This document shows, one piece after another, positions 54,153 through 58,395 of a stretch of 64,000 bases of DNA (positions are counted from its first letter, which is position 1; each line of letters begins with the position of its first letter). The translations under genes and the position numbers were made by a program. This DNA is from Planctomycetaceae bacterium. GTDB taxonomy: Bacteria > Planctomycetota > Planctomycetia > Planctomycetales > Planctomycetaceae. The DNA lies in assembly GCA_021732995.1 (NCBI GenBank), contig JAKFWA010000088.1, positions 5,612-69,611 on the forward strand. Direction: 5' to 3'. The notes beneath the pieces were generated by a model. It was not told where the DNA came from and did no database searches. It saw only the letters and a program-made list of their open reading frames with translations.

Positions 54153-54305
54153 TCAGGCTGATCTCTTCTCTTTGGCTTTTCGCCATGCGGCACGCTTGTT
54201 TTCGCGGCTTGGTTTCGGGTCGAATAAGTCGCCCGAAATCGGGCGCTGGGAGATGTTCGATACCTGCCGGAACTTGAACTGCCCTTGCATGAGGTCATTC
54301 ACCAT
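54153..54305 (-). CDS. Possible small basic protein divergent from apbE
   Basis: 50-residue frame starting MVNDLMQGQFKFRQVSNIS and ending in a Lys/Arg-rich helix (SRENKRAAWRKAKEKRSA). Codon third positions and composition look coding rather than random. Its ATG almost coincides with the ATG of apbE on the other strand, so both cannot be read from separate untranslated leaders. No ribosome site is clear and no family is recognised. Listed as uncertain. Confidence 0.35.
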   Translation of the reverse strand: MVNDLMQGQFKFRQVSNISQRPISGDLFDPKPSRENKRAAWRKAKEKRSA

Positions 54306-55317
54306 GTCGTTAAGTCGGCGTAAGTTTCTGACGTTGTCGTTAGGTGGAGGAGTAGCGGTCGCTGGTGGTTTGATCGCCGCCAATCACCCTCTCTGGGACA
54401 CCAATCAAGTTTTGACGGAGCACTCCCGTCGATCCTGGGCATTAGGCTCGGACGTCACCATGACGGTTCTGGGAACCGACGCCGCACAGGCGAACCGTGC
54501 ACTCGACTCGGCCTTTGCCGAACTGGAAACGGTCGAAAGGGTGATGAGCCTCTATCGACCCGATAGCCAGATCAGCGTTCTCAATCGAGAACGTATTCTG
54601 TATCAGCCACACCCGTATCTCGTTCAAGTGCTGACGGCCTCTGCTGAGACGTCACGACTATCCAACGGGGCGTTTGATATCACCGTGCAGCCGTTGTGGG
54701 ATGTCTTCGCGATCGCTCAGAAGCAAGGCCGACTTCCCTCAGATGATGAGGTTGGCAAGGCACGTCAGGCCGTTGACTGGCGTGCTGTGGAAGTCACGAA
54801 AGAGCGAGTGCGGCTGCTCTCTCCAGTTCAGGCGGTCACGTTGAATGGAGTTGCCCAAGGCTTTGCTGCCGATCGTGCGGTGGCGTCGCTGCGAAACCAC
54901 GGCATCGAGCATGCACTCGTCAACGCGGGTGAAATCGGTTCGCTGGGCACCAAGCCCAATGGTGATCCCTGGAAGGTCGGAGTGCAGCATCCTCGGCAAC
55001 GAGAAGCCTTCGCGGCGCTGGCTGCTCTGAGCGGTCGATGCCTCTCAACCAGCGGAGACTATGAGACCACGTTCTCGGCAGACTTCTCGAAGAATCACAT
55101 CTTTGATCCGCGCACCGGCCAGTCGCCGAGCGAACTCGCCAGTGTGAGCATTGCCGCGCCGACTGCCATGCAGGCCGATCTGTTCAGCACCACCGCGATG
55201 GTGCTTGGGCCCGAGCGAAGTCTGGAGTTCATTGCTCAGCTTCCGCACGTGGACGCGCTGTTGATTCTGAAGAACGGCCGCACGCTGCAAACGAGCGGCT
55301 TTGCGGGCAACGCTTGA
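54304..55317 (+). CDS. apbE: FAD:protein FMN transferase
   Basis: 337 residues. A twin-arginine leader (SLSRRKFLTLSLGGGVAVAGG) exports it to the periplasm. ApbE signatures: MSLYRPDSQISVLNR near 80-94, NGAFDITVQPLWD near 123-135, LNGVAQGFAADRAV near 182-195 (the flavin-binding G-x-x-x-G-x-x-x-D), CLSTSGDYETTF near 243-254, NHIFDPRTGQSPS near 261-273, and ADLFSTTAMVLG near 289-300. It transfers FMN from FAD to Thr in target proteins. The target is very probably the next gene. A start at 54304 has GAGG ten bases upstream. Confidence 0.93.
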   Translation: MSLSRRKFLTLSLGGGVAVAGGLIAANHPLWDTNQVLTEHSRRSWALGSDVTMTVLGTDAAQANRALDSAFAELETVERVMSLYRPDSQISVLNRERILYQPHPYLVQVLTASAETSRLSNGAFDITVQPLWDVFAIAQKQGRLPSDDEVGKARQAVDWRAVEVTKERVRLLSPVQAVTLNGVAQGFAADRAVASLRNHGIEHALVNAGEIGSLGTKPNGDPWKVGVQHPRQREAFAALAALSGRCLSTSGDYETTFSADFSKNHIFDPRTGQSPSELASVSIAAPTAMQADLFSTTAMVLGPERSLEFIAQLPHVDALLILKNGRTLQTSGFAGNA

Positions 55318-55421
55318 GATCACTGCTCACCTGAGAAGCCTGTGATGGTCTTGATTCTCAGCGTCGCGAACGCCTATCCGAGTCTTCATTCCGCAGATCA
55401 ACGTTCGAGTGAGACTTCCTC

Positions 55422-56501
55422 ATGAAATACATTGCACTCCTGCTGCTGTTGCCTGTTCTGCTCATCAATACCGCTGCGGCTCAAACTGGTGGAGCAGCCA
55501 AGCAGGCCGGCACGAAAGCGGATCTGGATCAGCTCATCAATAAACTTGGCAAAGCACCGCCGGACTGGTTTCAAGCCACGAAGCTGAACTATCCGCAGTC
55601 GCTGGACCTCAATTGGCCTGAGAAACCCGAAGGTGGCTGGAACAACCAGAAGAACGTCGGGCAATTCATCTGGGACGTGATCAATCCGAACCCCGGACGT
55701 TGGCGCGAGGGTGTGAAGCTGATGCATCATCTGCTGACGATGCACCAGAAGGATCCGGTGAAGCGTGAAAAGATCATGCTCACGATGGCCCACATGTACC
55801 ACAACCTGATTGAGGACTATGGACGTTCAGCCTTCTGGTATCGGGCAGTTGGTGTGGAGAAAGATCCGGGAGAGTATTCATCTTCGGCCGTGGTGCTCGC
55901 CGAGTGTTATTGGCGCTTAGGTTATATAACTGAAGCTAAGGCTTTGCTGGCTAAAGTGCCGGAAGGACTGCGACACGCCAAGTTGCTGGGCGACATGGGT
56001 GACACCGATCGGTCGATTAAGATGGCGTTGGCGAATCAGGACGAACAGGGCTATTCGTTTCTGACCGCTGGCGACGCCTGCCGACAAGCCGGTCGCTATC
56101 CTGAAGCTCTGCAGCACTACCAGCAGGTGCTGGCGATTAAGCTTCCTGCGCAGAATCCGCCGGGGCGTATGGTCCAGAATCACAAGCGCGCCAACGCCAA
56201 CATCGAAGCGATCAAGTCCTTCGAGTTGTTTGATCTCAAGCAAGTTGCCGACGGGAAGTACACCGCCGCGAGCCAGGGCTACGAGGGACCAGTCGAAGTC
56301 GCCGTCACCGTGGCAAAAGGTCGCATCCAGTCCGTTAACGTGACGAACCATCGCGAAAAGCAGTTCTATTCCGCCATCAGCGACACCCCGACCAAGATCA
56401 TCGCCAAGCAACACGTGAAAGGCGTGGATACCACCACCAACGCCACGATCACATCCGAAGCCATTGTGAATGCGACGGCTAAGGCGTTGGTGAAGAAGTA
56501 A
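55422..56501 (+). CDS. Exported TPR protein with C-terminal FMN-binding domain
   Basis: 359 residues. Signal peptide 1-20 (MKYIALLLLLPVLLINTAAA). The middle contains helical repeats of TPR type (IMLTMAHMYHNLIEDYGRSAFWYRAV, AECYWRLGYITEAKALLAK, TAGDACRQAGRYPEALQHY). The C-terminal 85 residues match the FMN-binding domain: DGKYTAASQGYEGPVEVAV, FYSAISDTPTKIIAKQHV and VDTTTNATITSEAIVNATAKAL, where Thr342 corresponds to the flavinylated Thr of the S-G-A-T consensus (glycine replaced by Asn340). It is expected to be the substrate of the adjacent ApbE. Confidence 0.85.
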   Translation: MKYIALLLLLPVLLINTAAAQTGGAAKQAGTKADLDQLINKLGKAPPDWFQATKLNYPQSLDLNWPEKPEGGWNNQKNVGQFIWDVINPNPGRWREGVKLMHHLLTMHQKDPVKREKIMLTMAHMYHNLIEDYGRSAFWYRAVGVEKDPGEYSSSAVVLAECYWRLGYITEAKALLAKVPEGLRHAKLLGDMGDTDRSIKMALANQDEQGYSFLTAGDACRQAGRYPEALQHYQQVLAIKLPAQNPPGRMVQNHKRANANIEAIKSFELFDLKQVADGKYTAASQGYEGPVEVAVTVAKGRIQSVNVTNHREKQFYSAISDTPTKIIAKQHVKGVDTTTNATITSEAIVNATAKALVKK

Positions 56502-56604
56502 GTGGCCGACTTGACCGGAAGGTGGGTCAACCGCAGGGCTACCCACCACCAACATCGTGTTGCTCTTGTTGCAGGCATCGTCCTGCGACCGAAGATCCTG
56601 ACCC

Positions 56605-58395
56605 ATGCGACTCGACCACTTCCTGCCATTTATGAAGAAGAGCAAGTTCGGCGCAATCCGCCGAGCGTTGCAACGGCTGGGTCCAACCTGGCTTTCGTCG
56701 CCGGTCAGACGCGTGGTGCAAGCGGTTTGTTTGTGTACTTTTCTCGTACTCTTCTTCTACGTGTGCTGGCCTTATACGGCTCGGCCTGACACATCAACGT
56801 CGGATTGGCCATCGCATTACACGGATGAACTGACCCGTAAGGAAAAGATTGCGGCCGAGTTCTTTCTGATCATCGATCCGCTGGTCAGTTTCTCAACGGC
56901 GATCGCGTCACGATCTTGGGTCTGGTCACTGACCAGCGCCGCCATCATTCTGGCAGCGTGCTTGCTGATTCCCCGTGGCTTCTGCGGCTATTTGTGTCCG
57001 TTGGGAACGGTGATCGATCTGTTCGATTGGTCCGTCGGAAAGCGAATCACCCGCTTCCGTGTGCCCGACGACGGCTGGTGGGTCCATATTAAGTATTATG
57101 TGTTACTGGCAATTCTCATCGCGGCGGCGTGCGGAGTTCTGATCTCCGGAGTCTTCGCGGCTATCCCGGTTATCACGCGCGGGTTGTTATTCACACTCGC
57201 ACCGTTGCAGACGGGTCTCTTGCGTGAATGGCATCTGGTTCCGCCCGTGAGCATTGGGCACGTGGTCTCGCTGGCACTGTTTGCGACCGTCTTAGGCTTG
57301 GGATTTCTCAAGCCGCGCTTCTGGTGCCGGTATGTTTGTCCCAGCGGTGCGGTCTTCTCACTCGGGAATCTGTTTCGAGTCACCGAGCGGAAGGTCGAAA
57401 GCTCGTGCATTCATTGCAACAAATGCGTTGAGATCTGCCCGTTCGACGCGATCAAACTCGACTTCACCACACGCACCACCGATTGCACGATGTGTCAGTC
57501 GTGCGGTGGAGTCTGCCCCACTCAAGCCATCAAGTTCGTGGATCGTTGGGAGTTGGTGCAGCTCAAGGCACCCGATGATCCGCCCACGCACGAGACTGCG
57601 TTGGGCCGCCGCGGCTTTTTGTCAGCTGCCGTCGGAGTTGCCGCAGGCGTAACTGGCGGGCTGAGCGTTGCTGGTGTCACCAAAGTCTGGGGAGCGGACC
57701 TTGATAACCCAAACGCATGGCGACCAATTCGTCCACCCGGCAGCGTCCCCGAAGCCGAATTCCTGCAGATGTGCATCCGCTGCGGTGAGTGCTTCAAGGC
57801 CTGCCCCAACGATGTGCTGCATCCCCTGAGTTTTCAACAGGGACTGGAAGGCCTCTGGACGCCGCGCGTGAACGCCGACTGGGCGGGCTGTGAATCCAGC
57901 TGTAACGCGTGCACGCAGGTGTGTCCGACCGGGGCGATTCGCGCGATTCCACTGGAAGAGAAGCGAGTCTGCCGCATCGGGCTGGCTGAGATCAACTTGC
58001 AAACGTGTTTGCCTCACGCCGGAAAAGAGGCGTGCCAACTCTGCGTCGATGAGTGCCACAATGCGGGCTATCACGCAATTGAGTTTGCCCGCGTGCACAC
58101 TGAGGTCGATGCGTCGGGGAACCCCGTTGAAGACTCAGGCTTCGTGGCCCCAGTTATCCTGGCCGACAAGTGCGTCGGTTGCGGCCTCTGCCAGACGCGA
58201 TGCTACGGTATCAACGTCGCCGACAAGCATCTTCTAACCGACTCCGCAGTCACTATCTTTGCTGGCACAGGTAAGGAAGACCGCATCATGAGCGGTTCGT
58301 ACGTCGCCCTTCGAGAAGAAGAGCGAGCGAGAAACGCCCCACAACAAGCCCCGGACGCAGCAAACGAGAATTACCTGCCGGACTTTCTGAAATAG
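56605..58395 (+). CDS. NapH/NapG-like fused membrane polyferredoxin
   Basis: 596 residues. The first half is a NapH/NosR-type membrane ferredoxin: helices near 40-58, 105-122, 164-205 and 216-236, with CGYLCPLG (127-134) and CRYVCPSG (241-248) motifs, then two 4Fe-4S clusters (CIHCNKCVEICP near 268-279 and CTMCQSCGGVCP near 294-305). A Tat-like segment GRRGFLSAAVGVAAG (334-348) leads into a NapG-like part with clusters at 390-401, 429-441, 468-484 and 523-533. It should move electrons across the inner membrane, probably to or from the flavinylated protein upstream. The fusion of two normally separate proteins is notable. Confidence 0.9.
   Translation: MRLDHFLPFMKKSKFGAIRRALQRLGPTWLSSPVRRVVQAVCLCTFLVLFFYVCWPYTARPDTSTSDWPSHYTDELTRKEKIAAEFFLIIDPLVSFSTAIASRSWVWSLTSAAIILAACLLIPRGFCGYLCPLGTVIDLFDWSVGKRITRFRVPDDGWWVHIKYYVLLAILIAAACGVLISGVFAAIPVITRGLLFTLAPLQTGLLREWHLVPPVSIGHVVSLALFATVLGLGFLKPRFWCRYVCPSGAVFSLGNLFRVTERKVESSCIHCNKCVEICPFDAIKLDFTTRTTDCTMCQSCGGVCPTQAIKFVDRWELVQLKAPDDPPTHETALGRRGFLSAAVGVAAGVTGGLSVAGVTKVWGADLDNPNAWRPIRPPGSVPEAEFLQMCIRCGECFKACPNDVLHPLSFQQGLEGLWTPRVNADWAGCESSCNACTQVCPTGAIRAIPLEEKRVCRIGLAEINLQTCLPHAGKEACQLCVDECHNAGYHAIEFARVHTEVDASGNPVEDSGFVAPVILADKCVGCGLCQTRCYGINVADKHLLTDSAVTIFAGTGKEDRIMSGSYVALREEERARNAPQQAPDAANENYLPDFLK

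Follow-up and report, generated by a model that had tools for sequence, protein, structure and literature searches.

A planctomycete gene trio of ApbE, an exported TPR-FMN protein and a fused NapH-NapG polyferredoxin: a candidate electron route to a periplasmic flavin

A class of 539 gene clusters has been described in which a NapH-like protein is accompanied by a separately encoded FMN_bind protein (Meheust et al. 2021, PMC8238504), and a NapH-like flavinylation system is operationally defined there as a PF12801 polytopic protein inside a flavinylation gene cluster; the main text of that report names neither planctomycetes nor TPR proteins. In PceC and NosR, too, an FMN_bind domain feeds a NapH-like membrane protein bearing CX3CP motifs. 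The fusion of NapH to NapG likewise has a precedent in PFD of the delta proteobacterium MLMS-1, which is a dual Sec/Tat protein (Tooke et al. 2017, PMC5449189). On the flavin side, crystal structures of covalently flavinylated domains are available (8P2B and 8P2A; PMC10339131), and the acceptor motif recognized by ApbE has been published as D-x-x-[S/T]-G-A-[S/T] (PMC12052999).

In the current study, we analyzed a trio of genes in a window of 64,000 nucleotides (the whole stretch of planctomycete DNA under study) that combines elements of these systems. Profile searches and the sequence bore out the coordinates and the three gene identities proposed in the initial annotation. All three genes are intact and are separated by intergenic gaps of 104 and 103 bases, and their features are as follows.

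54304..55317, plus strand: ApbE-family FAD:protein FMN transferase (337 aa; PF02424) with a twin-arginine leader, MSLSRRKFL
55422..56501, plus strand: TPR-FMN protein, exported (359 aa; PF04205, TPR_2/TPR_19)
56250..56495, plus strand: FMN_bind domain of the TPR-FMN protein, residues 277-358, matching 8P2B and 8P2A
56445..56447, plus strand: codon of Thr342, the predicted FMN acceptor (motif D336-T-T-T-N-A-T342), from its invariance and its alignment with Thr67
56605..58395, plus strand: NapH-NapG fused membrane polyferredoxin (596 aa; TIGR02163 and NapG models, Fer4 families, invariant cysteines)
56701..57540, plus strand: NapH-like part with four predicted TM helices, two CX3CP pairs and two cytosolic 4Fe-4S motifs (hydropathy, cysteine positions, PF12801)
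57601..57690, plus strand: internal twin-arginine motif, R335 R336, with the low-hydrophobicity TM5 (RR invariance, hydropathy)
57730..58224, plus strand: NapG-like extracytosolic part with four 4Fe-4S motifs (PRK09476, cysteine positions)

The transferase matches PF02424 over nearly the entire profile (236.5 bits, cut-off 25.6; E 5.1e-70), and the Tat leader first assigned to it stands on the SRRKFL sequence, with a TAT_signal_seq score (15.8 bits) slightly below the cut-off of 16.7. 3′ of the polyferredoxin gene lie a tRNA-His gene on the opposite strand and a hairpin with a T-run that scores on the minus strand.

Judged from its sequence, the trio falls into the separate-FMN_bind class of NapH-like flavinylation systems by the operational definition of PMC8238504: a PF12801 polytopic protein adjoins both ApbE and an FMN_bind protein that is exported, as read from the hydropathy of its leader. 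Like the described systems, it clusters the gene of the iron-sulfur protein with those of ApbE and the exported FMN_bind protein; it differs from them in the fusion of NapG to NapH, in the mounting of the FMN domain on a TPR array, and in having no adjoining nirS, exaA, nosZ or dehalogenase gene. Assignment to the PceC/NosR type was rejected, as the FMN_bind domain lies in a separate gene; in PceC and NosR it is part of the membrane protein itself, which is encoded beside rdh or nosZ, whereas here it belongs to a TPR protein and the membrane protein carries a NapG half instead. The halves are therefore already known in kind. New are the TPR-FMN partner, the relaxation of its acceptor motif and its strict pairing with the polyferredoxin in planctomycete and verrucomicrobial genomes. 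A literature search on TPR with flavinylation, or on planctomycete NapG, NapH or ApbE, returned no paper on the trio among its titles.

The two halves of the polyferredoxin are well delimited, with a NapH match over residues 85-316 and a NapG match over residues 331-537 (PRK09476, E 9.1e-28), and Fer4_5 (PF12801) scores 47.6 bits in the NapH-like part against a cut-off of 22. Six cysteine sets (268-278, 294-304, 390-400, 429-440, 468-484 and 523-533) agree with the six 4Fe-4S clusters originally attributed to a NapH/NapG fusion, and two CX3CP pairs (C127/C131 and C241/C245) complete the cysteine complement described here. Immediately N-terminal of TM5 is a twin arginine, in GRRGFLS, and TM5 itself has the lowest helix peak (mean hydropathy 1.70, against ca. 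2.0-2.75 for the four NapH helices). Both marks of a dual Sec/Tat polyferredoxin (PMC5449189) are present, namely, a NapH-like four-TM part fused to a NapG-like four-cluster part and an RR pair preceding a weakly hydrophobic TM5, and from this anatomy we predict that the NapG part is exported in a Tat-dependent manner. The initial annotation regarded the fused polyferredoxin as unusual. It is, in fact, of a known kind: PFD of MLMS-1 shares with it the fusion, the RR before TM5, the weakly hydrophobic TM5 and the four periplasmic clusters. The two differ in that FMN is absent from the main text on PFD (PMC5449189), whereas the present polyferredoxin is strictly paired with a TPR-FMN protein. 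A structure model of the polyferredoxin had a mean pLDDT of 56, too poor for topology or docking.

The TPR-FMN protein, earlier described as an exported protein ending in an FMN-binding domain, has a hydrophobic leader (residues 4-22, by hydropathy), a TPR-like helical array spanning approximately residues 32-268, in which TPR_2 and TPR_19 matches exceed their curated cut-offs, and a C-terminal FMN_bind match over residues 286-356 (PF04205, 46.9 bits, cut-off 22; E 4.6e-12). Structure prediction of the FMN domain had been proposed as a check, and in the AlphaFold2 model of the protein (mean pLDDT 88.4) the domain adopts the fold of the covalently flavinylated ones, superposing on 8P2B with Z 14.0 and 1.4 Å over 81 residues and on 8P2A with Z 12.8 and 1.6 Å over 83 residues. 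Sequence alignment pairs Thr342 with Thr67 of CbFMN4-D1, the FMN-bearing residue in the 8P2B crystal, and Thr342 is therefore the likely acceptor, as originally proposed, and would presumably carry the flavin covalently. CbFMN4 and SaFMN3, the multi-flavin proteins of PMC10339131 from which these structures derive, share with the TPR-FMN protein the fold of an individual FMN domain and the flavin-threonine position; they differ in carrying several FMN domains in a row, as opposed to one on a TPR array. An identity as RnfG/NqrC was rejected on the curated score (TIGR01947, 34.8 bits; cut-off 102), and no rnf or nqr gene adjoins the protein.

Relatives of the TPR-FMN protein were sought in GTDB representative genomes, giving 129 places, 80 of which were kept; the named hosts are nearly all Planctomycetota, with about nine Verrucomicrobiota, and cultured carriers include Rhodopirellula sp. 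SM50 and Brevifollis gellanilyticus. The polyferredoxin gene lies directly downstream of the TPR-FMN gene, on the same strand and with a median gap of 1 base, in 60/72 loci with room for it; of the remainder, three have genes between the two and nine have no polyferredoxin in view. Immediately 5′ of the TPR-FMN gene, 28 of 73 loci have ApbE (median gap, 3 bases). In a 393-genome sample of the phylum, a TPR-FMN relative (E<1e-10) was present in 17 genomes; in 16 of these, its contig also encoded the polyferredoxin, in most cases in the adjoining gene. NapH/NapG-like scores in this sample drop from 620 bits to 285 bits for the next-best proteins, and beside these weaker proteins (≤285 bits) no FMN_bind gene was found in the genomes checked. 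The distribution is patchy, with the unit in ca. 4% of sampled planctomycete genomes. The genes thus stay together in homologous loci, one of the points on which the original proposal was to stand or fall, and the union of TPR and FMN domains, first taken for an oddity, characterizes a family conserved among planctomycetes and verrucomicrobia. ApbE was present in all relatives' genomes (119/119); being universal, it was rejected as a marker of the system, and for the same reason, loci without an adjacent ApbE very likely have a copy elsewhere.

Conservation was scored in an alignment of 69 loci, each residue wherever it was present. All 24 cluster cysteines are invariant (the last eight in 68/69 rows, one row being gapped), and none of the 69 loci departs at the four CX3CP cysteines, at R335-R336 or at Thr342. 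Because of these invariant residues and a gene order recurring in dozens of loci, the trio as observed is far beyond chance. With it, the flavin-based electron carriers outside the cytosol gain a conserved module that has had no name until now, from phyla whose respiratory wiring has been little studied. As a three-gene unit it offers a defined object for asking where the electrons come from, which way they flow and what a flavin tethered to a TPR array does.

We consider it reasonably probable (roughly 60%) that the trio forms a cytochrome-free route by which electrons pass outward from the quinol pool, or another inner-face donor, to a periplasmic flavin. Sec would insert the first four TM helices of the polyferredoxin and Tat the fifth; the NapH half, with the CX3CP pairs, would provide a site of quinol oxidation, from which electrons may pass through two 4Fe-4S clusters on the cytosolic side and then four on the periplasmic side to an FMN presumably placed on Thr342 by ApbE. 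Through the TPR array, the flavin carrier may dock to the polyferredoxin, to periplasmic partners that change, or to both. The analysis shows the gene anatomy, the conservation, the strict pairing, the modeled fold of the FMN domain and the aligned position of the acceptor; the covalent flavin, the quinol donor, the outward direction and this docking role are inferences from the named families. Several observations argue for the route: the pairing, upstream ApbE and co-occurrence described above; the lack of FMN_bind neighbors beside the weaker NapH/NapG-like proteins in the genomes checked; the double pair at L105 and the divergent family with its own fusion (both described below); the invariant cysteines, arginines and threonine; the close fit of the FMN domain to 8P2B and 8P2A, with Thr342 on Thr67; and the published kin among NapH-like flavinylation systems (PMC8238504) and dual Sec/Tat polyferredoxins (PMC5449189). 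Against it stand the acceptor motif lacking the conserved glycine, the poor polyferredoxin model, the nine loci with room yet no polyferredoxin together with an orphan relative, and the fact that none of the lineages shows a linked electron acceptor. Of the flavin-based transmembrane electron route envisaged in the initial annotation, the pairing of an ApbE-served carrier with an iron-sulfur protein that spans the membrane is retained; the novelty of the fused polyferredoxin is not. A more speculative extension, which we regard as doubtful, is that the trio is a dedicated cytochrome-free export module of planctomycetes and verrucomicrobia, in which the TPR array makes the flavin carrier an exchangeable plug for several periplasmic clients and a cognate ApbE has adapted to the glycine-less motif; the association of non-Gly motifs with an adjacent ApbE, given below, bears on this last point.

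The main rival has the wire running inward, with oxidation of a periplasmic substrate reducing the FMN and the polyferredoxin passing electrons to the quinone pool or a cytosolic acceptor. NapH-like flavinylation systems are thought to serve reductases as well as oxidases (PMC8238504), and no linked enzyme fixes the direction here. The absence of a terminal enzyme beside the trio, noted from the start, extends to its relatives: no terminal oxidoreductase recurs nearby in any lineage, nor does any gene family beyond TPR-FMN, polyferredoxin and ApbE recur among the neighbors of the relatives' loci. GH62-like or Vgb_lyase-like genes do lie within the operon at a few loci, which would suit an inward flow. 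Nevertheless, the NapG and NapH halves resemble a quinol dehydrogenase and no oxidase family recurs nearby, and we consider the inward direction unlikely.

Alternatively, the trio may be a maintenance hub whose reducing power, instead of serving respiration, keeps proteins of the periplasm or cell surface in working order by reduction of metals, thiols or cofactors, with the TPR array recognizing the clients. TPR arrays commonly bind proteins, and the patchy distribution fits this alternative. Among same-strand neighbors, no Pfam family exceeds 4/77 (Vgb_lyase, PPK2, nitrilase and M20 peak at 4/77), as would be expected for scattered clients. A respiratory partner encoded elsewhere fits equally well, however, and no client is found among recurrent neighbors, so that a maintenance role seems quite improbable to us.

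The acceptor motif bears on a third alternative, that the FMN_bind domain is unflavinylated, with the TPR-FMN protein playing a structural or sensory part and ApbE acting on a different protein, for example the NosR-like one with tandem FMN_bind domains in the same genome. The TTTNATITS acceptor named in the initial annotation holds for the position of Thr342, and the motif keeps D336, T339, A341 and T342 of the ApbE consensus, but it departs from the published motif at the glycine, which is replaced by N340. In another flavoprotein, a Gly-to-Ala substitution in the motif cut flavinylation to ca. 50% (PMC12052999). Among the 69 relatives, this column holds G in 26, S in 16, R in 13, N in 9, A in 2 and K, H and D in 1 each, whereas A341 and T342 never vary and Asp336 is kept in 67/69. 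An adjacent ApbE is found at 31/55 loci with a non-Gly motif and at 1/28 with a Gly motif (Fisher p ca. 9e-7); in tree-aware pairs the link points in the same direction (2.3 for, 0.1 against) and is not significant, and because there are too few independent changes on the tree, the link is not established. The missing glycine, the universality of ApbE, the presence of which alone says little, and an orphan relative that adjoins sensor kinases would all suit an unflavinylated domain. The invariance of Thr342, the near-invariance of Asp336 and the closely spaced upstream ApbE genes argue against it, and we judge it very unlikely. The motif variants among the relatives provide ApbE targets that differ naturally at this site. 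The orphan relative (L131:7574-8716, G360) consists of the N-terminal segment and an FMN_bind domain with the motif NAVTGAT, has no polyferredoxin, and adjoins PAS/histidine-kinase genes.

That the trio feeds the periplasmic nitrate reductase of its own genome, which has a NapA/NapB/NapD cluster and two NrfA-like genes, is highly improbable, given that the nap cluster lies on a different contig (C51, L141:4094-11123) with its own NrfD, a 4Fe-4S protein and a multiheme protein in place of NapGH and that one NrfA-like gene has a NapC/NirT-type partner, so that nitrate reduction does not obviously need the trio. No nap gene lies beside the trio, which thus has no linked napA of the kind that marks NapGH.

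Elsewhere in this genome, two further ApbE genes (L031:15074-16180 and L033:8382-9521) had no FMN_bind domain adjoining either of them in a genome-wide FMN_bind search. A second FMN_bind protein (L032:8619-10346, contig C119), of ca. 575 aa, combines two FMN_bind domains with a NapH-like PF12801 part; no ApbE or terminal reductase was seen among the larger ORFs of that 13-kb contig.

Both partners vary in length across the loci. Outside the window's clade, the TPR-FMN protein often has a longer N-terminal segment, and many relatives of the polyferredoxin carry ca. 100 extra residues in the TM1-TM2 loop; the window's clade has neither, and by eye the two extensions show no strict correlation across loci. 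The distance matrices of the two proteins correlate with r 0.69, a value obtained without a species-tree control and given no weight here. At L125:3867-6627, L122:5200-6360 and L130:2615-3643, GH62-like genes (two loci) and genes for a virginiamycin-B-lyase-like propeller (two loci) stand between the TPR-FMN and polyferredoxin genes. A divergent TPR-FMN family of lipoprotein type has a NapH-NapG fusion of its own as partner. Both kinds of TPR-FMN/polyferredoxin pair, belonging to different subfamilies, stand in tandem behind a single ApbE at one locus (L105:1822-8910), and at L139:6734-9409 (G014) two tandem genes of the lipoprotein type precede one NapH-NapG fusion.
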